Assembly: GCA_030068145.1 (NCBI GenBank)
Contig: JAPJBO010000503.1
Span: 1 to 64,000 of the forward strand
Length of the DNA stretch: 64,000 bases
Direction: 5' to 3'
Source: Diplonema papillatum
Lineage: Eukaryota; Euglenozoa; Diplonemea; Diplonemida; Diplonemidae
Positions 25,460-63,196 of the stretch are shown in pieces (the stretch's first letter is position 1; each line of letters begins with the position of its first letter). The translations under genes and the position numbers were made by a program. The notes under the pieces were generated by a model. It saw only the letters and a list, made by a program, of their open reading frames with translations, made no database searches and was not told the DNA's origin.

Positions 25460-25628
25460 GGCAACGCTGCTCAACTAAGTGCTCGCTTGCCTTCATGGCT
25501 TTTGCACTTTACAGAACTCAATGCGTAACAAGTGCTCGCCTGCCTTCGGCACTTGCACTTTACAGACCTCAATGCTTAACAAGTGCTCGCCTGGTTCATG
25601 TACTTAAAAGAACTCAATGCTCAACTAA
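25460..25628 (+). repeat. tandem array that is the LINE target
   Basis: Three imperfect units of about 45-55 bp built on AGTGCTCGCCTG, a CTTCATG/GTTCATG block and AGAACTCAATGC. The LINE is inserted after the last unit; part of that unit is duplicated on the far side of the LINE. A similar block (TGTGGCTCATGTACTCAAAA) is seen unoccupied at about 42475-42500. Confidence 0.7.
25592..25628 (+). repeat. 37-bp target-site duplication, left copy
   Basis: TGGTTCATGTACTTAAAAGA and 17 further bases are identical to 30693-30729. Confidence 0.9.
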
Positions 25629-25652
25629 GCAAGACAGCGGCTGATAACCGCG

Positions 25653-25679
25653 GGGGACGTCGAACAAAACCCTGGTCCC
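25653..25679 (+). other. 2A-like ribosome-skipping peptide encoded in the LINE leader
   Basis: GGG GAC GTC GAA CAA AAC CCT GGT CCC reads G-D-V-E-Q-N-P-G-P, matching the D-x-E-x-N-P-G-P 2A consensus. It is in frame with the ORF ATG at 25692, four codons downstream, and no stop intervenes. The in-frame TAA at 25626-25628 is the last codon of the target duplication. There is no upstream ATG in the element, so expression needs non-AUG initiation (a CTG is at 25641) or another route. GCGG/CCGC (25637-25640/25648-25651) and GGGAC/GTCCC (25654-25658/25675-25679) could form stems. T. cruzi L1Tc is known to carry a functional 2A in a similar place. Confidence 0.88.
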
Positions 25680-25691
25680 GGCCGCGCGGAG

Positions 25692-28600
25692 ATGAGGTTC
25701 GCGACGTTAAACATAACCAACCTACTACAGTATCTCCCAGCGGCCGACGCGGTGGAAGCGGATCTTCTCTGCTGCCAGGAGGTGACACTCCTTCCGTGCA
25801 AACGGGTGCAGGCGGAGGAATACCTGCGGAAATGGTGCTGCCACTGGGGTCTGCCACCACCCGGAAGACTCTGTAGGAACTCCGGTAGTCGCTCGACGAT
25901 GAACGCCGCGAACGGAGGGCTCTCCACTCTAGTACTGAGACCGATACCGGCGTACGATACGATGACGGCGCTCTCGCACGCAGCAATACGGTCCCCGGAC
26001 CGAGTGAGCCATACGGTAGTAGCAACAGGGGCCGGCAACACGTTCGTGCACGTGTTCAATGTCTACTGCCCTTCCGGAAACGGGAGGGCGGAGAGCGAGG
26101 AGCGTGAGGACATGCTGGAGAAGATCCTCTTCGCAGCGGCGGATAGCCTCGGTGACGTCCCCATAATGGTGATGGGTGACCTGAACACAGAAGAAGACCG
26201 GTCCCCTGTACTGCGGAAGGCACTAAGGAATGGGTGGTCCGACGCAGCGGAACTGCACCATGCGCGTACCGGTGACACACCACCACCACCGACCTTTACT
26301 AGCGCCCGGACATCGGGCACGAGGATCGACCGCATACTCCTCAACCGAATAACGACGGGAGCTTTCCGCCAATGCGTCACCACCGCGGTGAACGTGCCGG
26401 GACACCGGCTCGTGACAATGACCCTGGACATTGCGGCGCTGCGCCAAATCGTGTGGCGATTTAAAGTACCGCGGGAAATCTCTACGGAGGGGGGACCCAA
26501 GTGGGGCCTCTCGGACACAGAAGCTTACAGGGAAGCCGTACAGAGACTGGCCAACTCCGATTTCGCAGAACGGCTGGCAGCACAGCGAGTGGAAGAGGCC
26601 TGGCTCGAGTGGTCACGAGTCAGTGAGCAGTACTTGCAGGATGCCTTCGGAATCCCTGCGGAAGAAAGGGGAAGAAGTACCGGCCGGGGGATAAAGACGT
26701 CACCTAAAAGAGTCTGCATCACGGCAAGCACTGCGAGCGACGGGTCGGGGGCGGCGAACAGCAGACAGCTACGGCTCCGGAAGGCCATCCACAGGATGGA
26801 ACGCATCTGCAGCTACCTTGCGCAACGGCGCGGGCCGGAGGCAGTTCCGCATGAGGTATCCCGTTGCTGGCAGAACAGCAGGCGGCTGGCACAGGCGTGC
26901 ATGAAAGATGGCCAAGGGACAGAAGGATTCCCGGATCATGAGGAGGCGAAGCAGCTTCTCACGGCATTGCGGGAAGAGACGAGCAGGCTCGGAAAGGAAG
27001 GATCGGCGGCCAGGTTTACGAAATACCGAGACAAGCTGAACGAGAGGGCCGATGCGAGCAGACGATGTCTGACAACCATCTGCGCCGGACGCGCTGAGCC
27101 GTCGGGGGTGTTGCGAAAGGGGGCGGGAGTGACTGCAAATGTTGACGAGATGGACGAGGTGCTGAACACTGCGTGGGACCCTATCCTGCGTAAGTACAAG
27201 GACGGGCCAGAGCCGGAGTACGAGCCGTTTCGGGATCGGTTCCGGGATCACATCGGCCCACATATGATGGAAGCCGGAACAATCACGGGGGAGGAGCTAC
27301 GAATTCTGCTGAGGAAGAAGCCGAAGAAAAGCGCGTCAGGGGTGGATGGCTGGCGTATGGCTGAACTGCGGGAGTTGCCGCTCCCCCTGCTGAATGCACT
27401 TGCGGACGTCATGAACCTGGTCGAAGCAACTGGAGACTGGCCGGCAAGCATGACAACTGCGCTGGTGTCGATGGTGCCGAAGGATGAGAGTCAAGACCCG
27501 CTGCACACAAGACCGATAACCGTCACATCCGCCGTGTACCGCCTATGGGCCTGCCGCAGGCTGGCGGACATAGTACTGTGGCAAGAGGAATGGATCGAAG
27601 AAGGACAGAAAGGCTTTCGACCAGGTCACCGGATCGAGGACGTCTTGATGGAAATTGGGCTCGAGATGGAGGACGCCTTGTTAGACGGGGAGCCGCTCTA
27701 CGGTGTGGCGCTGGACTTCCGGAAATGCTTCGACATGGTCCCACGAGAGATAGTACTGCGCTTAGCCGAGGACTTAGGATTGCACAATCGGGTTCTCAAG
27801 CCGCTGAGGGCTATCTACAGACTGCTCGCGAGACGCTTCAAGCTACCATTAGGGGTGGGCAGGGAGTTCAGTGTGACCAACGGTATCCTTCAAGGGTGCC
27901 CTGTATCCGTCATACTCATCAATGCCCTGCTGTCGGTAGTGATGAAAGCGGTCAAGAAAGAAGCGGAGGGTGTGAGTCCAAAGTCATACGCGGACGACGC
28001 CACACTGCTGTCCAGGCTGTCGGAGGCCGCCCTGCAAAAGGGAGTGGACGTAGTAGACGAGTTCTGCACACTCACCGGTATGGAGCTAAACCTCCAGAAG
28101 ACGGTCGCGTTCTCGACGAGACGTAGGCATCAGTCGACTCTCAAACTCCGCAGCGTGGATGCGCTGCTGCGGTTTAGCAAATCCGTCAAGTGCCTCGGGG
28201 TCCTAGTCTCGACGGCGAAGAATAGGACGGAAAGGTCCGACTCGGAGAGGGTGGAGAAGGCGGCTGCCCTGGCGGAAGGCCTCCGCCATGCGCCGTTCCG
28301 GTACGAAAAGCGGGTCCGGATTGTGCAGTCGAATGTGCTACCGGCGGCGCTGTCAGGCTGCTCTTTCGCGCCGGTATCGAAGGTGGCGATGAAACGGCTG
28401 ACGACGTCGGTGATGGGACTGATCTGGGGTGGATCCAACCCGAAGCGCGCGAGGGAGATGGTCCTAAACTTTCAGGAGAAGGGCCACCTGACGGATCCCG
28501 GTACATGCCTAGCATATAGGGTGACGACAGCGTTTTACGCGGCGTGCGAGAGGTTGCCACGACTGCTGCCTCTGATGGAGAGCATCCGGGGAAGATACGC

Positions 28601-30659
28601 CGAGGGGGACCTACCCCTGGGGCCAGTTGGACTGGCGATGAGGAGCATGGGGGAGTGTGGACACGTATGGGGACCCGGGCCCCTGTCTCGCACGCTGAGG
28701 AATGGTGCAACATATGACCCGTTAGCCTCGGCACCTTCGAAGAGGGGACATGAAGTTAGGGCGGACTTGAGGGCGAAGACGTGGTCCCGACTGGTGGCGA
28801 GGCGGCCGGGATTTGAGGGCATACAGAGAGCCGACCTGGAGCGGACGAACACCTTCTGGAGGATGCGTGAATGTCCCGCGCACACCGCGAGGCTTATACG
28901 TGTAGCGTTGGCGGGGGGGGTGAACACGGCTGAGTACACGTCGCGGATGAGGCAGGCCGGAGCTGAGCCGCAGGCGCCCAGCTGCAAGCACTGTGGAAGC
29001 GGCGACACCGAGGACGAGAAACACGTATTCTGGGACTGCGGAGCGTACTCGCACATACGGCGACGAGAGGCACATGCCGAGCTGATGGCAGCCAACCGGG
29101 CCGACTGGCCCAGATGCACGCTGGAACACGGAGTGGTAGTACCCGAGAATGCCCAATTCTCGAGGCGGCTCCAGGAGATGATGGCTGAAATCCTTGCGGA
29201 ACGGGCTGGGCTCGAAGCACGTGGCTGGGTGGCCAGGAACCCCACGACCCCCTGGTCGAGAGCGAATGCGATGCCTGCCGAGAAATTTGACCACCCCTTC
29301 GCGCGGATTGCCCCGGCATGGACGTGGGAGCGGAACAAGACCTGGGGACTACCGACGTTTTATGCGTTGGTAGCGTGGCTGTCGGACATGCAATGGACCG
29401 AGAACGGGCAGGTGTCAATGCTGGAGCTTGCGATCGACTTTGAACTCTTCTCGGGCCTCAGCATGCCGCTGCACGGGAATGCGCCGAAGGGGGTGAGAGA
29501 ACGGGGAAACGTCCTGCGCTGCATGATGAGCGCGTTGGACAAGCTGGCGGCACAGCAAGGGCTGGGAAGCTGCATGAGAGGAGAGAGGGTGTGCCCGACG
29601 ACGTCGCTGTCGTTCATGGGCATCACGGGGATATCGGGTATACGGCCCAGGCCACGCTTTCGCGAGGCACACACGGGGACGATACTTGAGGAACAAGTGA
29701 AAGGAAGCGATGTAGGGACGCAGTGCCCGACGTACCCTGACTGGACGATCGGGAGAGCGGCGAGGTGGGCCCTGCCTGCCCCACCACAACTGCACCCAGA
29801 CCCCGTGCATATGCCGGGTGTCGGTATAGAGAAGGCACTCGTCACGTGCGCGACCCATCACAAAGGGAAGTGTGAGGCGTGCAGAGCACTCGTCCGAAGG
29901 GACGTTCCCACGGTAGAGATGTGCTGCCGGCACCATCACCACGCGAACGATGGGCAGCCGATCGCGGTGTGCACAGAGCACAGCACGACGAAGTGCGGCG
30001 AGTGCAAGACGGCGGCGGCGTGTTGCCGCAGCGGGCATCATGCCTGCCGCACGCATGGCAGAGGAACCTGCCAAGAGTGCAAAAGGCTCCCTACGCTGAC
30101 GCAGAGGCGACCGGCGGCATGTTGCAGCCGCGGCCACCACCAGTCCAACAAGCCGAACGTCCAGTCAACCCCCGGACGCAACAAGAAGAAGAGGCCCTCC
30201 TCACCCACCCAGGTGGGTGTACAGCGGGAGACGCCATTAGGAAAGCGAGCGGCGCGAGCGCCGCTCGCGGCAACGAAAAAGGAGACGGCGGCGACCGGAC
30301 GGGCGACCAAGAGGCCGCCACCAACGCCAGGAACCAGCGAACGACCAGCGCTGAAGAAGAGGGTGCTTGGCACCCCGAAGGAAGGCCCGATCGCCGGCCG
30401 CAAGCGGAAGAAGACGAAGGCGACCACCCCCGACTCAGGGGTGCATCGAAGGAAGAAGAAGGTTCCGAGGGCAAGCAGCTCTCAGAAACGACCGGGGACC
30501 ACGGGCACGCCAATGCCCTCGAAAGTGAAAAACGGGCACACGTGCCCGCCCTCGTACTCGCCGACTCAGTCTCTGGAATCGCAAGAAAGCCAAACCCCGC
30601 TAGCTCCACAAATGCTCGACCTTGACGACGCAATGGCAGGTGACGACGTCATCCGATAA
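25692..30659 (+). CDS. LINE polyprotein: AP endonuclease, reverse transcriptase, Cys/His-rich tail
   Basis: The product copies its own RNA into nicked target DNA. The N-terminus is an APE-type endonuclease: C-C-Q-E (about 29), G-D-L-N (about 162), T-R-I-D-R-I-L-L (about 207) and P-G-H-R-L (about 236). A linker follows to about 540. The reverse transcriptase spans about 550-830, with the first catalytic Asp in A-L-D-F-R-K-C-F-D (about 675), G-I-L-Q-G-C-P and Y-A-D-D at 766-769. A C-x2-C-x9-H-x4-C knuckle lies at about 1098-1116. About 1383-1481 is a Cys/His-rich array with repeated C-C-R-x-x-H-H/C-x-x-C units, then a Lys/Arg/Pro/Ser-rich basic tail. No RNase H domain was recognised. Start ATG 25692; stop TAA 30657-30659. 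The 2A places it nearest the ingi/L1Tc style of element, but clade assignment needs a tree. Confidence 0.95.
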   Translation: MRFATLNITNLLQYLPAADAVEADLLCCQEVTLLPCKRVQAEEYLRKWCCHWGLPPPGRLCRNSGSRSTMNAANGGLSTLVLRPIPAYDTMTALSHAAIRSPDRVSHTVVATGAGNTFVHVFNVYCPSGNGRAESEEREDMLEKILFAAADSLGDVPIMVMGDLNTEEDRSPVLRKALRNGWSDAAELHHARTGDTPPPPTFTSARTSGTRIDRILLNRITTGAFRQCVTTAVNVPGHRLVTMTLDIAALRQIVWRFKVPREISTEGGPKWGLSDTEAYREAVQRLANSDFAERLAAQRVEEAWLEWSRVSEQYLQDAFGIPAEERGRSTGRGIKTSPKRVCITASTASDGSGAANSRQLRLRKAIHRMERICSYLAQRRGPEAVPHEVSRCWQNSRRLAQACMKDGQGTEGFPDHEEAKQLLTALREETSRLGKEGSAARFTKYRDKLNERADASRRCLTTICAGRAEPSGVLRKGAGVTANVDEMDEVLNTAWDPILRKYKDGPEPEYEPFRDRFRDHIGPHMMEAGTITGEELRILLRKKPKKSASGVDGWRMAELRELPLPLLNALADVMNLVEATGDWPASMTTALVSMVPKDESQDPLHTRPITVTSAVYRLWACRRLADIVLWQEEWIEEGQKGFRPGHRIEDVLMEIGLEMEDALLDGEPLYGVALDFRKCFDMVPREIVLRLAEDLGLHNRVLKPLRAIYRLLARRFKLPLGVGREFSVTNGILQGCPVSVILINALLSVVMKAVKKEAEGVSPKSYADDATLLSRLSEAALQKGVDVVDEFCTLTGMELNLQKTVAFSTRRRHQSTLKLRSVDALLRFSKSVKCLGVLVSTAKNRTERSDSERVEKAAALAEGLRHAPFRYEKRVRIVQSNVLPAALSGCSFAPVSKVAMKRLTTSVMGLIWGGSNPKRAREMVLNFQEKGHLTDPGTCLAYRVTTAFYAACERLPRLLPLMESIRGRYAEGDLPLGPVGLAMRSMGECGHVWGPGPLSRTLRNGATYDPLASAPSKRGHEVRADLRAKTWSRLVARRPGFEGIQRADLERTNTFWRMRECPAHTARLIRVALAGGVNTAEYTSRMRQAGAEPQAPSCKHCGSGDTEDEKHVFWDCGAYSHIRRREAHAELMAANRADWPRCTLEHGVVVPENAQFSRRLQEMMAEILAERAGLEARGWVARNPTTPWSRANAMPAEKFDHPFARIAPAWTWERNKTWGLPTFYALVAWLSDMQWTENGQVSMLELAIDFELFSGLSMPLHGNAPKGVRERGNVLRCMMSALDKLAAQQGLGSCMRGERVCPTTSLSFMGITGISGIRPRPRFREAHTGTILEEQVKGSDVGTQCPTYPDWTIGRAARWALPAPPQLHPDPVHMPGVGIEKALVTCATHHKGKCEACRALVRRDVPTVEMCCRHHHHANDGQPIAVCTEHSTTKCGECKTAAACCRSGHHACRTHGRGTCQECKRLPTLTQRRPAACCSRGHHQSNKPNVQSTPGRNKKKRPSSPTQVGVQRETPLGKRAARAPLAATKKETAATGRATKRPPPTPGTSERPALKKRVLGTPKEGPIAGRKRKKTKATTPDSGVHRRKKKVPRASSSQKRPGTTGTPMPSKVKNGHTCPPSYSPTQSLESQESQTPLAPQMLDLDDAMAGDDVIR

Positions 30660-30692: not shown

Positions 30693-30729
30693 TGGTTCAT
30701 GTACTTAAAAGAACTCAATGCTCAACTAA
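30693..30729 (+). repeat. 37-bp target-site duplication, right copy
   Basis: Identical to 25592-25628; ends TCAACTAA. Confidence 0.9.
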
Positions 30730-31207
30730 CATGACGCGGGCGGCATAGAAAAAGCAGGAAAACTCTGTGACCCCCATTATGTCCACCGAAACCCCATGGT
30801 ACCTACCCCACCTGTGTAATCGTGCATCGGGCGGCGCACAAGGAACCAAGCGCCCATGCGGGGCTTGAAGCTCATCAGACAATCGATGCACAACCTCATC
30901 AGCTTGCCAAACGAACGTTTCAGATTACCACACAACGCAAGCACCTTGTCTCCGGTAGCTCCGGCCAGCTGACCTCCAAAGTAAAAACGCTCCGCTGAAA
31001 AAAGACGCCTTTTCCGCCGCAGGGCGGAAGCAAGGTAGCCAGGGCTTCTCACTGGCCCCGACGCACGCCAGCCCTCCTCCAAACCCTCTCTGTCTTTATG
31101 CTGTCTTTCTTTCTCTTTTCTCCTCAATGTGGTAACAAGAAGCAAGGTTTGGCGGGTCAGGGTCCCCCCCAGAGAAGGGAAATAACCCGTCTTCCCCACC
31201 CCTGCAG

Positions 31208-35925: not shown

Positions 35926-36240
35926 GTAGCCACTTGACCCGTAGGCCCGTGGCTCTGCAGTACCGCCGAACACGTGAAGCTTGGCTTCCGTGTAGCAGGC
36001 TTTCCCTGGTAAAGGAATGAAGAAAACCGAATACCAACTTTCGATGGGGTGATACCCCAAGGGTACTTGGACACCCTGCGGGGTCACCCCACCTATCCCA
36101 AAAACAAAATGTTTCCCGCGTAGAACAGACACCCTGTGTGTAGATTCTTCAAGCCCCGCAAATTCCCTCGAAGAATCCGTGAGAAATCGGTAGCCACTTG
36201 TCCCGAAGAACCCGCAGAACAACCCCGACGCCATCTGTTT

Positions 36241-36266
36241 ATTCTTATTGTACTGCTTACTTGCAG
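36241..36266 (+). promoter_or_regulatory. AG acceptor in USP leader, probable trans-splice site
   Basis: A T-rich tract ends CTTACTTGCAG, 58 bases before ATG 36325. Confidence 0.45.
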
Positions 36267-36324
36267 CTTAGCAAAAACGCCCGCCGAATCGCAAAGGGAG
36301 AGGGGAGGAGGAGAAGAGAGGAAA

Positions 36325-37999
36325 ATGGACCTCTCCCGTCTGGAGCGGGACTGCATCCCGGTGCGCCTGGATCTGACGTACGACACTTACATCAAGGCCC
36401 TGCGCGGCGCCGTGGTTCGGGAGTGGGAGGACAAGCAGAAGGAGAACCTTTCGGTCAAAAGCTTGAAGCGGGTCCTCGAACGCTACTACATCGAGGTCGA
36501 CGACAGCTGGCAGAAGAGGCGGTGGGACTGGTGCTACTATTACAGCTGCCGATACGCGATCGTCGCGCAGGATCACCTGCGCAAGCACAAGGAGTGGCCG
36601 CGGATAGACGCCCGCGTGAGGGAGCAGATCATAAAGAACATCGGCCGCGCGCTCGACATCTGCGACACGGAATGCGACGGGAAGCTCGAGGCGCAATTCA
36701 ACGCGAGGAAGGCGAAGCTGGTGGCCAGCCAGCGCGCCGCCGACGACGCGGAACGCGCGAAGGAGGAGAAGTGGAAGCAAGTCGAAGAGCAGCGCAAAGA
36801 GCGGGACAAGGAGCGCAATAGGGAGCAAGAGGCGAAGGCGAAGCGCAGGAAGCTCGAATCCGACTGCGCCTGGCGCTTCGAAGCCGCCCGACCGTCGCAA
36901 CACGCGGTTCAACCCCGCAGGGGTTTGCACAACATAGGGAACACCTGCTACATGAACGCGGTACTGCAATGCCTCGCCCAGTCCCAGCTGCCCACCCTCT
37001 TCGGCACCCTGGGGCTCCCCCCGGCTGCGAACGCGGAAGCGCACTCCGTGCTGCTGGAGACGATGGCCGTGCTTTCCGAGTTGCGCCGACCGGTTTCCCC
37101 GGGCAGGCGTGCGCCGCCGCCGGCGGTCAACGCGACGCGGCTGAAGGCGGCGCTGGGGCAGAGGAGCCCGACTTTTTTAACGTCGTCGCAGCAGTGCGCG
37201 AGCGAGTTCTTTGATGCTTTGATTGACGCGCTGCACGAGGACCTAAACGCCGCGCCTTACAGCCGGAAGGCTCTGCGTGCGAGCGGGCTGCCGCCCCCTG
37301 CCGTACAGGTCCCGACCGACGGGAAGCCGGACGCTGAGCTTGCGAGCCAAGCCGTACTCGCCATCAAACAGCGGGACGATTCGCCGGTGCACGGCCTCTT
37401 CGGGTTCCTCGAGAAGAGACGGCTGCAGTGCCCGCAGTGCCAGCACACGAGCACGACGTTCTCCCGGCAAACGTCGCTCCACCTCTCGGTCAACGCTTCC
37501 GCCACCAACTTCGTCGTCGACCGGCTCTCCCTCCACCTTTCCGAGGAGACCCTTCCTTGGACCTGCTCCGGGTGCAAATCGGCGGTGAAAGCGCGGAAAA
37601 AGCTGTCCCTTTGGTCGGTACCGTCGGTGCTGTGCGTCGTGTTCAAACGGTTCCGCGTCGCGGGGTCGTCGGAGGGGAAGGTTGAGGCGCCGGCCGCGTT
37701 TCCGCAGAGCTTGGACCTCGGCGAGTTCGTTGAGGGAGCGCCCGGCAGCGCGGCGGCGTACGAGCTCGCCGGCGTCGTGAACCACCAAGGGCAGCACTAC
37801 ACAGCGGACGTGCGGGGCGCCGAGGACCGTCGGTGGTTCTGCATGAACGACACGATGGTTGCCCCGTCCCGCGGACCGCCGTCGGCCGCGGGCGCGTACA
37901 TCCTCTTCTACCAAAACACGCTGCTCTCATCGCCCGCAGCGAGCATGCCGGCGGCGCCGAAGTCGCAGCAGCCCATCCCGCGGTCGCCGTTCGCGAAAG
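36325..37999 (+). CDS. ubiquitin-specific protease with Tudor/Agenet-like tail, exon 1
   Basis: Spliced from 36325-37999, 38545-39410 and 40041-40262 (phases 1 and 0), 920 residues. It is a USP/C19 cysteine protease that removes ubiquitin from proteins. Residues 1-185 are a helical, then highly charged coiled-coil N-terminus. The catalytic Cys box is N-I-G-N-T-C-Y-M-N (Cys about 208). The zinc pairs are C-P-Q-C (about 369) and C-S-G-C (about 414). The His box is N-H-Q-G-Q-H-Y-T-A (about 490), followed by W-F-C-M-N-D and A-Y-I-L-F-Y-Q. The usual Q-Q-D-A-x-E-F motif reads Q-Q-C-A-S-E-F: an Asp-to-Cys change at a position usually conserved. Start chosen at ATG 36325 after the leader acceptor at 36266. 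Confidence 0.93.
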
Positions 38000-38544
38000 G
38001 TGTGCCCTCGGCCCCTCTACTTCTACTCGCCGGGCGAAAGCCCAACACAAAAGCACAACCCCGCTTGCCATGGAAATCAGGACGTATTACAAATTGCGAT
38101 GCTGACAAGCCAACCATGAAAGCAGCTCGTGGTGTCAATTTGTTGTGCTGTTGTCGACAAGGGCAAAACCTGCAGTGGAAACAGCACGTGAGTTCAAATT
38201 GTTACGTTGGAAACACGGGGCAGAACACCCATATTGACCCAAGGTTTTGACCCAAAGAATGCACCCGTGTCTGTGACATCATCCCCCAAGTCTTCGACCC
38301 AGTGAAATTTCTATGTTGGGCATAGAAGCAGGTTTATAAAATCTTTCTGCCCATATTTGGCAGCTTTTGGTAAAATGGCCGGCCATACCAGCCGTGTCGT
38401 CAAAAGAGAAGCGTTCCAGAAGTGAGGAAAAATGCGCAAAGTCAGAACGGCGTAAATCGTCGCTCTCACTCAAAAGGAAAATGCTGCGACTGAGACACCG
38501 AACGGAGCGTCCGAGCAATGTACACCTTTTTTACAACACCTCAG

Positions 38545-50352: not shown

Positions 50353-50459
50353 GAACTCAGGTTGCAAGGTGGCTATTCAGAAGCTGGGCGAAGCCCTCGC
50401 ATCAAGACCTGTGCTCTCGACGGTGGTAATGATGTATGGGCGACTTCAATGGCTGTCCG

Positions 50460-50505
50460 GTGCTAGAATTACCGCGGTGCTGGCACCAGACTTGTCCATC
50501 AATTG
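50460..50505 (-). pseudogene. 18S rRNA 530-loop fragment, reversed
   Basis: On the minus strand: CAATTGATGGACAAGTCTGG, then TGCCAGCACCGCGGTAATTC. In a normal 18S this segment directly precedes the forward fragment at 50296-50352; here it lies about 110 bp away in opposite orientation. Confidence 0.88.
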
Positions 50506-50629
50506 TGTTCATTGACAGGTCATTGCTTCTAACGTACGAAGTACGTTCCGAGGCTATTTCTCTTCGCTGCCTCAGCAGTGTTGCTATTGGGAAGTTTGCG
50601 TACCTGCACCCGTATTTTCTTGCGAGGGC

Positions 50630-51072
50630 CGAGAAGGAGTTGGGCCAAGCACTTGATCAGGGAGCGCCAGAAATAAGAAGACAGCAGTCTTGCGAAGCAG
50701 CAGTCAAGGGAACGGACTCGAAACTGTCAGCGGGGAAATAAGGACCAAGCGCTTTGACTCCAGTCTGACCTTGATGGCAGCTCGGTACGAGCCACCGAAA
50801 GACGTCGCTGCCTTCTACGCGTCTCTAAGTCTCGCACCCGCCACTTTTCGTGCATCCCCACTGCTGAACTCGGCAAGCATGCAGAACTGATGTGCCTTGC
50901 TTTTATGATGATCATGCGTAGGTTGCTCTGCAAGCTTGCGAGGCCGGAGAAGGAGTCTTGGGTCAAGCGCTTGACCACGGAACGCAAAGGCAAGAAAGAG
51001 GAAGTAGACGACAGCAGTTTGGCGAAACAGCAGTCAAGCGAATGGACTTGAAATTGTCAGCGGGGATGTAGG
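50630..51072 (+). repeat. direct repeat pair, CAGCAGTCAAG family
   Basis: 50630-50740 and 50948-51072 share GAGAAGGAGT, CAAGC-CTTGA, CGACAGCAGT, GCAGTCAAG and TGTCAGCGGGGA with many substitutions. 51073-51980 has nothing recognised. Confidence 0.65.
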
Positions 51073-58465: not shown

Positions 58466-58759
58466 GAAGTGCCGGCGAGAGTTTAAATCGAGCGAGCTTA
58501 CTACACGAGACAGAACTAAGGAGCACACAAGTCAGTCATCACCCGACCAGCCGGGCAGAATTGTGAAAATATCATAAAAAACCAGGAACTGGGAAAACTG
58601 GGAACCAGGAAAACCTTGAAAACCCGGAATCGGGTCGGGAGTGACGGACAGAAACGCAGAACTTCCCGAAAGAAAGGCATCAGAACAAAAAGTCGAAGCA
58701 ACGCAAAAACAAAAACAAAAACAAGAAACCTCGCCGTCGTCGTCCTCCTGCCATTCTGT

Positions 58760-61700
58760 ATGACAGTTGCGAGTCTGCCGTATGCGGCAAACGAACCGGC
58801 AGCGGACCTCGACGGGTCGTCATCGGAAGTGATTAATGAAGGCCCGGTCGCAATCTCTCTGCACGAAAATGCGGGCCTCGGGGCGCCGCGGGTGCCGGCG
58901 GTGGAAACGGCCGGGTTCATCTCGTGGATGATGGTCGACTTCATCCAGCCGATGCTGCAGCTCGCCAGGGAGAACCGGTTGGGGCTCGACAACGTCGACC
59001 CCCTCCCTGAGCGGGACCGGGCGCGTGCGCAGGTCGATGCCTTCCACGTGGTCTGGGACGAGCGGAAGGCGCAGGTGACCGAGCAGGGCTTCCACGACAC
59101 GCTCGCCGCCCTCGAAGCCGTCGACAAGAAGGAGATGCTCCTCAAGAAGGCGGACGACCCGTGGCAGATCATCCGTTCCCGCGTGCAGGCAGGCGAATAC
59201 ACCAACTACAAGGACCTCCAGCGGTTCCAGGAAGACGTGAACAGAATTGTGTTGATGCCGCCGTACCGTGCGTTGGCGCCCAAGTGCACCAGGTGCAAAG
59301 CCGGTCTATGCCCGCTGCCCGACGGTATTCCAGAGCTGGCGAGTCTGCCGCCGTGCGAGGAGCCGCACCGCAAGCTGCGGTGGCTGATGATGAACTTCCG
59401 GAGGGTGATCCGCAAGCCGCAGCCGAACCTCATCTCGACGCTCCTCCGCGTGCACAAAAGGGACATCTTGAAGGGGTTGACCTTCGGCTTGTTCCAGGCG
59501 ATCACCCCGTTCGTGCCCATCGTGCTGCTTCCCTTCGTGAACGACAGCCTGATCCCGGAAGACAACGGAGTAGAGCTCGAGACGAAGACGCCGTACTGGT
59601 ACACGTTCATCTACGCCGCGATTGTGTTGGTAGCCATCTCTTTGATGGGGTTCATGATGAAGCTCACGTTCGAGACGACGGCGACCGTATCGAGCCGGAT
59701 CCGAGGCTGCCTCGCAACCGAGCTGCTGCACAAGGCCCTCCGGATCTCGCAGGGTGGCTGGCACTCGGCGGGCGGCCACGCCGCGATCTTCACGCTGCTG
59801 CACTCCGACATCGAGCGCATGTTCCAGACCTCGTGGAACCTCATGGGGAACATCCTGTTCATCCCGACGCAGACGATCATCGCCCTCGGGTACCTGTTCT
59901 ACGTCATGTCGTGGCCCACGGTCGCAGGGCTCGTCGTGTTTTTGTTCCTCACCCCGTACAACACGTACTGCGCGCTCTCGTTCCAGCTTCTACTGGCGGA
60001 GCGGATGTTCTCGGCCGACGGCCGGACGCGGGCGGTGCACGAGCTCATCGAAAACATCCGCGGCGTGAAGTTCTACCAGTGGGAGGAGCAGTACTACCAG
60101 AAGATCATCGACCTGCGCCTAGCCGAGGCACGCATCGTGCGGCTGGTGATGAAGGCGATGGCCAAAATGCTCAGCTTCTCGGCGTTCGCGCCCATCCTGT
60201 TCCAAGCCGTCGTCCTCATCGTCTACGCAGCATGGGACGAGGAAGGCCTCACCGCCTCGAAGGTGTACGAATCCCTCTCGCTGACCTACGTCATCCGCAG
60301 CAGCTTCATGGCCATCCCGTTTTTGTGCACGGCACTCATGCAGTTCTACGTCGGGTTGTCCCGCGTGCAGGACTACTTGGTCAGGGAGGAAGGCGACGCG
60401 AGGCAGCCCGCCATCTGCGACAGGGCCATCCGCATCGAGAACGCGAGCTTCGGCTGGGTTGCCGGCAAGAACGTGCTGGAAAACGTCAACCTGAGCGTGA
60501 AGCCCGGCGAGTTTGTGATGGTCGTCGGCAAGGTCGGCACCGGCAAGTCGACGCTGCTGTCGGGGCTCCTGCAGGAGGTCGCTGTCAGCTCCGGGACGAC
60601 CCACGTCGGCGGCCGCGTCGCGTACTGCCCGCAGCAGCCGTGGATCTTCAGCGGCACCATCAGGGACAACGTCGAGTGGGCCTGCGTCGACGAGAGGGCG
60701 AAGAGCGAGGAGAGGTACCGCAGCTCGATTGCAAACGTTGCGCTGCTGCCGGACCTTCGGAAGCAGCTGCCGGATGGCGACGCGACGACGATCGGGGAGA
60801 AGGGTACAAACATTTCAGGCGGGCAGAAAGCGCGGGTGTCCCTGTCCCGCGCCCTGTACAGCGACTGCGAAGTGTACTTGTTGGACGACGTGCTCTCCGC
60901 CGTCGACGCCTACGTCGGCGCCCACATCTTTCACCACGCCCTCCTCGGGCAGCTCACCGGCAAGACGCGGCTGCTGGCGACCAACCAGATGCAGTTCCTG
61001 CCCTTCGCCGACCGCGTGTTCTCCATCGAGCCCGTCGGCGACAACGGCGCGCACACCCTCGTCGAAGTCAACGCCGCGGATCCGTCGTCCTTCGACAAAG
61101 CCTCGCACTTCTACCAGCTGCACGCGGAGCACGTCCGGCAGCAGGACCTCGCGAAGGAAAAACGAACGAAGCAGCACCCCGCGTGCGACCCCCTGCAAAC
61201 GTACCCGAACACCGGCGGCGGGGACGCCGACGGACAAGCACCGCAGCTTGCCGTCGACGGGCAGGTGGCCGCAGGGGATCCGAGGGCGTTGAGTGTCACG
61301 GTTGTTGACATGAACGGGGATTCGCGGCACGGGGCCGAGGCTGCGTTCAAAGCGGGGGGGTACAGCGCGACGAAGCTGGTGGTCGACGAAGGCGTCGAGG
61401 AAGGGATCGTGACGTGGAAGACGTACGTCATCTTCTTCAGCTACTTCGGCGGCGCCGCGTACTGGGTCTTCATTGTGTTCTGCCACGTGTACGCGAACGC
61501 GGTTGATAAGTTCGCGCAGGTGTGGATTGGGTGGTACGCCGACCGAGACAGCGCGCAGCAATACGCGGCCTGGGAGCGGCGTGAGGTGCTCACGGGGCAG
61601 TCCACCGTTTTTTGGTTCGGGATCTACATTGCGATCGCGTTCACCGGCATGGCGTTCATCCTCTTCCGGGAGCAATGCTTTGCCACCGGCGCTGCGAAAC

Positions 61701-63196
61701 CGGTTGTTCGGTTGTATTCAGACCTCCTCACCGCCGTCCTCGACAGCCCTCTGCAGTTCTTCGACACGACGCCGGTCGGGCGGATCCTGACGCGGTTTTT
61801 GAATGACTGGGAGACGGTCGACTACCAAATCCCGCTGTTTGCGGCGCAGTTCTTCATCCAGGCCGGGCTCATGGTCGCGGCCCTGCTCGTTGTCGCGATG
61901 ACGATCCCGTACTTCGCCGGCATGCTGCTGCCCGTCGGCGCCGCGTTGTACTACATTCTGCACCGAAACCGCGCGTCCCTGCACCTTCGCCGGCTGTTCA
62001 ACGTCACGAAGTCGCCGGTCTCCGAGGTATTCGCCGAGAACCTGCGGGGGCTCGATTCGATCAGAGCGTACGGGATGCAAAACACGGTGGTCCTCGCCCA
62101 GGAGGCGACGCTCGACGTGAACCACGCGTGCTTCATGGGCGAGCGGTATGCCTTTGAGTGGGTCCGGCTGCGGGTGAATCTGCTGGCGGCCGCGGTGCTG
62201 TGCAGCATCCTGCTCCTGCTCATCGTCGTCCGCGACGAGCTCACGTCGTCGACCCTCGGGCTGGTCATCTCGCAGGGCGTGTTCGTCGTCATTGTGGTCG
62301 CCCAGGCCTTCTTAATGCGGCAGCAGATGGACTTCTCGATGAACTCCGCAGAGCGCGTCATCGAATGGTGCCACCTCCCCTCCGAAGAGCCGAAGGACGC
62401 CTTCATCGACGCCCCGAAACCGCCGTCTGACTGGCCGACGGTCGGGCGCCTTGAGATCAAAAACATGAGCGTCAAGTACCGACCCGATTTGCCCCTCGCA
62501 ATCAAGAACCTGAACGTCGTCATCGAAGGCGGGTGGAAGGTCGGAATCGTCGGCCGGACGGGCGCCGGCAAAAGCACGGTGCTCAAAGCGTTGTTCCGGC
62601 TGATGAAGCCGGAGCCCGGGTTTTCCCTCGTCATGGACGGGTTCGACGCGACGCAGCTGCCGCTGCGGGAGCTGCGGAAGCTGTTCGCAATCATCCCGCA
62701 GGAGCCGGTGCTCTTCGCGAGCACCGTCCGGAAGAACATCGACCCGTTTGCTACTGTCGACGACGCGGAGCTGCGGCAGGCGGTCGAGCTGTGCCACCTG
62801 AGACCCGCGCTGCAGGAGCGCGCCGGCGCAGGCGGCGACCTGCTGGAAGTCGACGTTTCAGGCGATTCGCTGTCCATCGGCCAGCGGCAGATGCTCTGCC
62901 TGGCGCGCGCCCTCGTCATGAAGCGGAAGTTCCTCCTCCTCGACGAAGCCACCGCGTCCGTCGACGTGCACACGGACAAGCTCATCCAGGAGACGCTGCT
63001 GACCGCTTTCAAGGACTGCACAGTTCTCACCATCGCCCACAGGCTCAACACCATCACGCACAGCGACCGAATCATGGTCTTGCAGAGCAAGAACGGTGTA
63101 GGACAGCTCGCGCAGTTCGCCAGCTACGACGACTTGGTGGCAGACAAGCAGGGCGTCTTCTACCAGCTTGCCAAGGAGGCCAACCTCGTGCAATAA
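58760..63196 (+). CDS. ABCC (MRP)-type full ABC transporter
   Basis: 1478 residues from ATG 58760, single exon. It is an ATP-driven membrane exporter of the multidrug-resistance-protein subfamily, typically moving anionic or glutathione conjugates. Order: soluble N-terminus with the ABCC-like L-D-N-V-D-P-L-P; membrane domain 1 (about 215-520; P-F-V-P-I-V-L-L-P-F and other helices); NBD1 with Walker A G-K-V-G-T-G-K-S (about 589), signature I-S-G-G-Q and Walker B V-Y-L-L-D-D; a linker; membrane domain 2 (about 880-1170); NBD2 with Walker A G-R-T-G-A-G-K-S (about 1264), signature L-S-I-G-Q and Walker B L-L-L-D-E-A. NBD1 has Asp where NBD2 has the catalytic Glu, the usual ABCC asymmetry. There is no TMD0. 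The frame is open upstream of the ATG without another ATG. Stop TAA at 63194-63196. Confidence 0.96.
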   Translation: MTVASLPYAANEPAADLDGSSSEVINEGPVAISLHENAGLGAPRVPAVETAGFISWMMVDFIQPMLQLARENRLGLDNVDPLPERDRARAQVDAFHVVWDERKAQVTEQGFHDTLAALEAVDKKEMLLKKADDPWQIIRSRVQAGEYTNYKDLQRFQEDVNRIVLMPPYRALAPKCTRCKAGLCPLPDGIPELASLPPCEEPHRKLRWLMMNFRRVIRKPQPNLISTLLRVHKRDILKGLTFGLFQAITPFVPIVLLPFVNDSLIPEDNGVELETKTPYWYTFIYAAIVLVAISLMGFMMKLTFETTATVSSRIRGCLATELLHKALRISQGGWHSAGGHAAIFTLLHSDIERMFQTSWNLMGNILFIPTQTIIALGYLFYVMSWPTVAGLVVFLFLTPYNTYCALSFQLLLAERMFSADGRTRAVHELIENIRGVKFYQWEEQYYQKIIDLRLAEARIVRLVMKAMAKMLSFSAFAPILFQAVVLIVYAAWDEEGLTASKVYESLSLTYVIRSSFMAIPFLCTALMQFYVGLSRVQDYLVREEGDARQPAICDRAIRIENASFGWVAGKNVLENVNLSVKPGEFVMVVGKVGTGKSTLLSGLLQEVAVSSGTTHVGGRVAYCPQQPWIFSGTIRDNVEWACVDERAKSEERYRSSIANVALLPDLRKQLPDGDATTIGEKGTNISGGQKARVSLSRALYSDCEVYLLDDVLSAVDAYVGAHIFHHALLGQLTGKTRLLATNQMQFLPFADRVFSIEPVGDNGAHTLVEVNAADPSSFDKASHFYQLHAEHVRQQDLAKEKRTKQHPACDPLQTYPNTGGGDADGQAPQLAVDGQVAAGDPRALSVTVVDMNGDSRHGAEAAFKAGGYSATKLVVDEGVEEGIVTWKTYVIFFSYFGGAAYWVFIVFCHVYANAVDKFAQVWIGWYADRDSAQQYAAWERREVLTGQSTVFWFGIYIAIAFTGMAFILFREQCFATGAAKPVVRLYSDLLTAVLDSPLQFFDTTPVGRILTRFLNDWETVDYQIPLFAAQFFIQAGLMVAALLVVAMTIPYFAGMLLPVGAALYYILHRNRASLHLRRLFNVTKSPVSEVFAENLRGLDSIRAYGMQNTVVLAQEATLDVNHACFMGERYAFEWVRLRVNLLAAAVLCSILLLLIVVRDELTSSTLGLVISQGVFVVIVVAQAFLMRQQMDFSMNSAERVIEWCHLPSEEPKDAFIDAPKPPSDWPTVGRLEIKNMSVKYRPDLPLAIKNLNVVIEGGWKVGIVGRTGAGKSTVLKALFRLMKPEPGFSLVMDGFDATQLPLRELRKLFAIIPQEPVLFASTVRKNIDPFATVDDAELRQAVELCHLRPALQERAGAGGDLLEVDVSGDSLSIGQRQMLCLARALVMKRKFLLLDEATASVDVHTDKLIQETLLTAFKDCTVLTIAHRLNTITHSDRIMVLQSKNGVGQLAQFASYDDLVADKQGVFYQLAKEANLVQ

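Follow-up and report, generated by a model that had tools for sequence, protein, structure and literature searches.

The 2A-like peptide encoded near the start of a LINE in the window, i.e. the whole 64,000-nt stretch of Diplonema papillatum DNA analysed here, is almost certainly an internal part of a longer ORF2, and the copy that carries it a 5'-truncated insert. Longer copies of the element contain, in a single reading frame, an ORF1 that we take to be gag-like, a stop codon in the context UGA CUN, a module with an AlkB or OTU domain, the 2A motif, an endonuclease and a reverse transcriptase, an arrangement that can be read directly from the copies. The best overall explanation, which we regard as quite probable, is that readthrough of the UGA codon would yield ORF2 and that the 2A peptide would then free the endonuclease-reverse transcriptase part (EN-RT), the copy in the window having been truncated.

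As read from the window sequence, positions 25629-25691 (ARQRLITAGDVEQNPGPGRAE) are in the same frame as the ATG codon at 25692. The features of this region are the following:

25496..25583, forward strand: two older, diverged tail-like repeats (25496-25532 and 25547-25583), 70-73% identical to the tail
25592..25628, forward strand: tail copy before the truncated element, ending with an in-frame TAA; its 37 nt are identical to 30693-30729
25629..30659, forward strand: ORF2 remnant that begins 8 codons ahead of the 2A motif, 1676 codons plus the stop codon TAA
25653..25679, forward strand: 2A motif GDVEQNPGP, in frame, assigned by pattern count and by similar motifs in 10 of 50 protein relatives
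25692..30659, forward strand: ORF from the first ATG, 1655 aa, ending with TAA at 30659 (ORF reading)
25716..26348, forward strand: endonuclease domain PF03372, residues 9-219 of the 1655-aa ORF, E 1.3e-8
27501..28202, forward strand: reverse transcriptase domain PF00078, residues 604-837 of the 1655-aa ORF, E 1.4e-20
30693..30729, forward strand: 3' tail of the element, earlier taken for a 3' target duplication; the tail recurs downstream of 2A in other copies

Both Pfam domains scored above their cut-offs and lie in one ORF, as expected of an AP-endonuclease LINE, and no Pfam RNase H domain was detected in the 1655-aa ORF at E 0.001. The peptide DVEQNPGP conforms to D(V/I)ExNPGP, the form of the 2A motif used (PMC12846837). 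The pattern D[VI]E.NPGP occurred once in the six frames of the window and in none of 60 first-order Markov simulations, and the looser pattern.[VI]..NPGP was found 0.08 times per simulation. Motif, frame and Pfam domains thus bear out the sequence-only reading of a canonical in-frame 2A peptide located N-terminally to the endonuclease-reverse transcriptase of a LINE, and the 2A-EN-RT frame of the window copy is whole. A CTG codon is located at 25641 and an in-frame TAA codon at 25626-25628. The closest protein relatives belong to Diplonema papillatum itself, with 91-100% identity across the matched part.

Diplonema papillatum is a free-living diplonemid with a published assembly of ~280 Mb, and a rigorous study of its transposable elements was deferred by the genome paper (PMC10161547). 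The genome sequence searched here comprised 271 Mb in 2910 contigs, with the window being part of contig C503. A query of 309 bases around the 5' end returned 359 candidates, 40 of which were scored, and all 40 matched; these are the window copy and 39 others, and they form the basis of all counts out of 40 given below. Stops or frameshifts between the motif and the ATG, which would have spoken against an in-frame 2A peptide, were present in none of the 40 copies, and at least 1659 codons from the leader onward are kept in 19 of them. The leader peptide is identical in 39 copies, but the copies say little on codon conservation, since 38 of the 40 leaders are identical at the DNA level.

Shared element sequence extends at least 21 nt further upstream of the leader in 37 of the 40 copies; 35 of these share a longer flank, and L029 and L030 differ beyond the common 21 nt. 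In the window copy, L009 and L010 alone, the element ends at or a few bases from the leader, and at this point each of the three abuts a tail copy (TTAAAAGAACTCAATGCTTAAC and variants of it). The sequence-only reading had described an intact LINE with a 63-nt 5' leader and a 37-nt target duplication. These assignments did not hold: 37 copies reach further upstream than the window copy, the leader bases are internal ORF2 codons in the longer copies, and the 37-nt repeat is the tail, whose presence downstream of the 2A motif in 35 of the 40 copies identifies the supposed duplication as the element's own 3' end. At most the TAA codon could derive from the target; this stop is in frame, as had been stated, but it forms part of the preceding tail copy. 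Translation from certain insertion sites only was the earlier proposal that came nearest to these results: in the window copy the TAA of the tail, 8 codons ahead of the motif, cuts off the 2A peptide.

It is very improbable that the element genuinely starts with the leader and that the leader is translated from CTG 25641 or serves as a Pr77-like promoter or ribozyme, and this earlier interpretation can be considered largely refuted already. The starts of the window copy, L009 and L010 fall within ~11 nt, as would be expected of a genuine 5' end, but the query consisted of tail and leader and favoured such junctions. Moreover, the sequence upstream of the leader is in frame in the 37 longer copies, and the window copy, which differs by 0.31% from the B-type copy L014, is placed among longer copies. 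Further shortened copies, namely L049, L072, L086, L070 and the rearranged L061, start 3-14 nt past a tail (gaps derived by hand), at points that differ widely along the element. In L085 a tail is close by with different sequence intervening, L059 and L074, likewise shortened, showed no tail in the stretch available, and no junction was located in C48 and C13.

The leader did not resemble an RNA element either. The fold of positions 25629-25715, for which two stems had been predicted, was no better than that of shuffled sequences (z -0.04; 92 of 200 shuffles equal), and the Rfam search around the leader, which addressed the suggested HDV-like ribozyme, gave no ribozyme at E up to 10, the only match being a miRNA family on the opposite strand with E 6. 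Rfam searches of five copies with their 3' flanks were uninformative. Neither a CTG start nor a dual-use RNA element is needed, because the leader bases are internal ORF2 codons in longer copies such as L071. Both initiation at CTG and a 5' ribozyme at the leader were rejected on the grounds of the in-frame upstream sequence in 37 of the 40 copies, the missing ribozyme match and the fold statistics.

Some observations concern the surroundings of the tails. Three tail-like units are arranged in tandem at positions 25496-25628 of the window, and the shortened copies L009, L010, L049, L070, L072 and L086 begin near the tails of other copies. These starts would be compatible both with template jumping and with insertion after an old tail. 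Among the 35 tailed copies, the motif ACGTGGGCGG is found at most 25 nt past the tail in 20 copies and, with one mismatch allowed, in 27; it is present in the 3' flanks of L009-L047 and at 30730-30745 in the window, and a hairpin-like repeat often comes next. The recurrence of ACGTGGGCGG beyond the tails suggests a preferred, multi-copy target site.

The upstream part missing from the window copy is represented in L048, L049 and other copies, in which the 2A frame is open upstream for 337 codons up to a TGA codon, and beyond this TGA an ORF1 with a Cys-rich end lies in the same frame. The complete ORF2 of L071 comprises 2007 codons from TGA to TAA. ORF1 ends were recognised in 28 copies and are followed by TGA CTN in all of them (18 TGA CTA, 9 TGA CTC and 1 TGA CTG); the frame or the spacing to the 2A motif is maintained in 24 of the 28, and indels break the spacing in L065, L073, L076 and L079. 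The other 12 of the 40 copies are truncated or rearranged, lack a recognisable ORF1 end or, in the case of C295:909 near a contig end, were not examined. All eight longer copies that were fully read from TGA to 2A (C398, C1, C264, C370, C357, C352, C295 and C105) are open, with the 2A motif inside the frame between two protein parts. Five layouts were distinguished, termed A, B, O, D and E, and none of them contains a stop between TGA and 2A in the ORF2 frame; the other two frames contain 11+7 (A), 11+10 (B), 8+2 (O), 2+4 (D) and 1+1 (E) stops, and the simulated chance of an open frame was 0.0015 (A), 0/2000 (B), 0.005 (O), 0.036 (D) and 0.11 (E).

A stop codon in a UGA CUA-like context, with the exact CTA in 18 of 28 cases, is thus combined with an in-frame extension, and in human cells UGA CUA is the consensus for high basal readthrough (PMC4359377). 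Judged from these sequence features, UGA readthrough is likely to be the route to ORF2. The first in-frame ATG in layouts A and B is located 660 or 786 nt after the ORF1 UGA and within the AlkB domain, whose HxD motif has no preceding in-frame ATG; the AlkB domain of these layouts therefore needs either readthrough or a non-AUG start. The earlier puzzle of a missing upstream AUG accordingly recurs in A and B. In the other layouts, in-frame ATGs between UGA and 2A are present at codon 5 (O), codons 100 and 144 (D) and codon 35 (E).

These latter ATGs are compatible with a different route, in which ORF2 would be made by termination-reinitiation or from a separate trans-spliced mRNA with an AUG near the 2A motif, so that 2A trims a short N-terminal peptide. 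One of the ATGs of family D yields MAKKLLLLGGDVETNPGP, as in the gene model P0005, diplonemid mRNAs receive a spliced leader (PMC10161547), and reinitiation is known in the LINEs SART1 and LINE-1 (PMC5972666). However, this route provides no in-frame ATG ahead of the AlkB HxD motif in A and B and leaves the shared frame, the open spacers and the conserved TGA CTN unexplained, and we therefore consider it unlikely. Two further explanations of the in-frame UGA were discarded. A reassigned UGA was rejected, as the 2007 codons of the L071 ORF2 are free of TGA and end with TAA, and an intron spanning the UGA was thought unlikely, since an element copied from RNA would presumably lose it.

The frame and the stop context were also found in divergent families. 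P0005, the family D protein, shares 56% identity with the window protein across the first 900 residues, and family E is 66% identical to family D. The single family D copy (L088) carries TGA CTC, 154 codons and the 2A motif GDVETNPGP, and family E carries TGA CTA, 101 codons and, in three of four copies read, GDIEENPGP; in the family E copy L090 the frame is shifted and the 2A frame runs into TGA GGG. The ORF1 proteins of A, D, E and O are ~24-47% identical over their aligned parts, with some weak E-values, and because these lineages are homologous the shared TGA CT represents conservation rather than four independent cases. TGA CT and the frame have been kept across long divergence, with spacers that vary in length and largely in content. 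A 2A-like motif ahead of the endonuclease was detected in 10 of the 50 protein relatives: D(V/I)ExNPGP in P0005, P0016, P0037 and P0046 and variants in P0006, P0015, P0018, P0022, P0024 and P0035, those of P0006 and P0016 having been spotted by eye after they were missed by the script's pattern. Many other relatives are gene models that start within or after the endonuclease and are uninformative on 2A. No 2A motif is present in P0028, P0029 and P0034, whose N-terminal part is OTU or related to OTU.

The stretch of 337 codons holds a putative AlkB-type dioxygenase (PF13532, E 8.3e-13, 49.4 bits at a cut-off of 31.2), for which ALKBH8 was the nearest solved chain (E 8.9e-7); the AlphaFold model of this part was poor (pLDDT 44) and gave no support for the fold. 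The AlkB core is 49-67% identical to the AlkB of three other Diplonema proteins, and the residues HxD, H and RxxxxxR, which we take as the AlkB motif, are invariant among the compared domains. In L050 the place of AlkB is occupied by an OTU fold, joined 21 nt before the leader; its Pfam score of 20.1 bits is below the cut-off of 23.3, and the assignment is based on a model (mean pLDDT 64) that matches OTUD3 with E 1.8e-6. Type B copies (L005 and others) contain a different ORF1, identical to that of family D over 128 residues, and an AlkB part that is 99.3% identical to the AlkB of L048. From these comparisons, at least two exchanges of the stretch from ORF1 to 2A seem to have taken place between families. 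Apparent recent recombinants are L050, L029 and L030 as well as L005 and L007, which carry ORF1-OTU or the family D ORF1 on the same 2A-EN-RT. The three other Diplonema proteins with a related AlkB domain are P0051-P0053; one has an OTU match below the cut-off, and one looks to us as if it bears a tyrosine recombinase.

The AlkB and OTU parts might instead be passengers acquired by template switching, the stretch from UGA to 2A being untranslated and its open frame due to chance or a relic. Recent copies are in line with this view, as their AlkB differences look neutral: no purifying selection was detected when five copies or groups of copies were set against the reference L004 (13 nonsynonymous to 4 synonymous changes at 694:236 sites), where the endonuclease columns are meaningless owing to an indel that breaks L004. 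Likewise, the spacer dN/dS between D and E of 0.44 hardly constitutes a signal beside 0.57-0.58 in the wrong frames; the values for the ORF1 end and for 2A with the endonuclease start were 0.28 and 0.20. Untranslated passengers are nevertheless improbable in view of the conserved AlkB core with its invariant residues and the low simulated chance of open frames in the layouts, and a 2A peptide retained in divergent families would be useless without upstream translation.

Readthrough followed by 2A skipping remains our preferred explanation. Most ribosomes would halt at the UGA and release ORF1, and the few that pass it would extend ORF1 by the module; at the 2A motif the Gly-Pro bond would be skipped and EN-RT continued as a separate protein. 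The predicted output is ORF1, little ORF1-AlkB and equally little free EN-RT, and a release of EN-RT by 2A would allow the UGA-2A stretch to be exchanged between families. The window copy almost certainly lost its 5' part on insertion directly behind another tail. Against readthrough stand the neutral AlkB, the weak spacer dN/dS, the in-frame AUGs of O, D and E, the indels in 4 of the 28 copies, the frame shift of L090 and the 2A-less P0028, P0029 and P0034. For diplonemid LINEs in general we slightly favour the view that a leaky UGA CUN and the 2A peptide act as a two-step switch that would set the ratio of ORF1 to EN-RT independently of a protease, with an exchange slot for AlkB (demethylase-like), OTU (deubiquitinase-like) and basic spacers.

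In the readthrough of retroviral gag-pol, a leaky in-frame stop sets the ratio of structural to copying proteins and a protease frees the polymerase, whereas in the Diplonema element 2A would release the copying protein. APE-type animal LINEs with 2A peptides were reportedly described by Odon in 2013 and would share with the Diplonema element a 2A-like motif in an endonuclease-reverse transcriptase LINE. L1Tc and ingi-clade LINEs of trypanosomatids also combine an AP endonuclease, a reverse transcriptase and an in-frame 2A in a euglenozoan host (PMC4748587). L1Tc additionally has an RNase H and, at its 5' end, the Pr77 promoter with an HDV-like ribozyme (PMC4748587), whereas the Diplonema element showed no ribozyme match around the leader and no Pfam RNase H, and its 2A comes after ORF1, UGA and the module. 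An AlkB-type dioxygenase in a retroelement has been described for orchid Ty3/Gypsy elements, and the orchid AlkB demethylates m6A in vitro (PMC9289625); these are LTR elements with AlkB in a separate ORF, in contrast to the Diplonema LINE with AlkB in ORF2 before 2A. The literature searched, outside of which lie most subscription papers, yielded no description of a LINE that carries AlkB or a UGA-2A pair, nor of the present elements.

The N-terminal 2A peptide of a LINE protein, which is hard to explain on its own, hereby gains a likely partner in the module upstream of it and the stop codon, which is in frame and probably leaky. Two questions thereby become testable: by what means a LINE that lacks a protease could produce plenty of ORF1 but little free EN-RT, and by what means it could acquire further enzymes while leaving EN-RT undisturbed. 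A dozen AlkB homologues were read as a sign of host regulation by the genome paper (PMC10161547). In contrast to this view, the AlkB domain described here belongs to many copies of a mobile element, and some of the homologues attributed to the host may themselves be mobile.

Three further features were noted in the window. A fragment at 50456-50638 on the reverse strand matches eukaryotic SSU rRNA with 53.9 bits at a cut-off of 50, and many scattered rRNA gene pieces (28S) were reported by the genome paper (PMC10161547). Long ORFs on the forward strand match a ubiquitin carboxyl-terminal hydrolase (36136-38250) and an ABC transporter (58616-63196).
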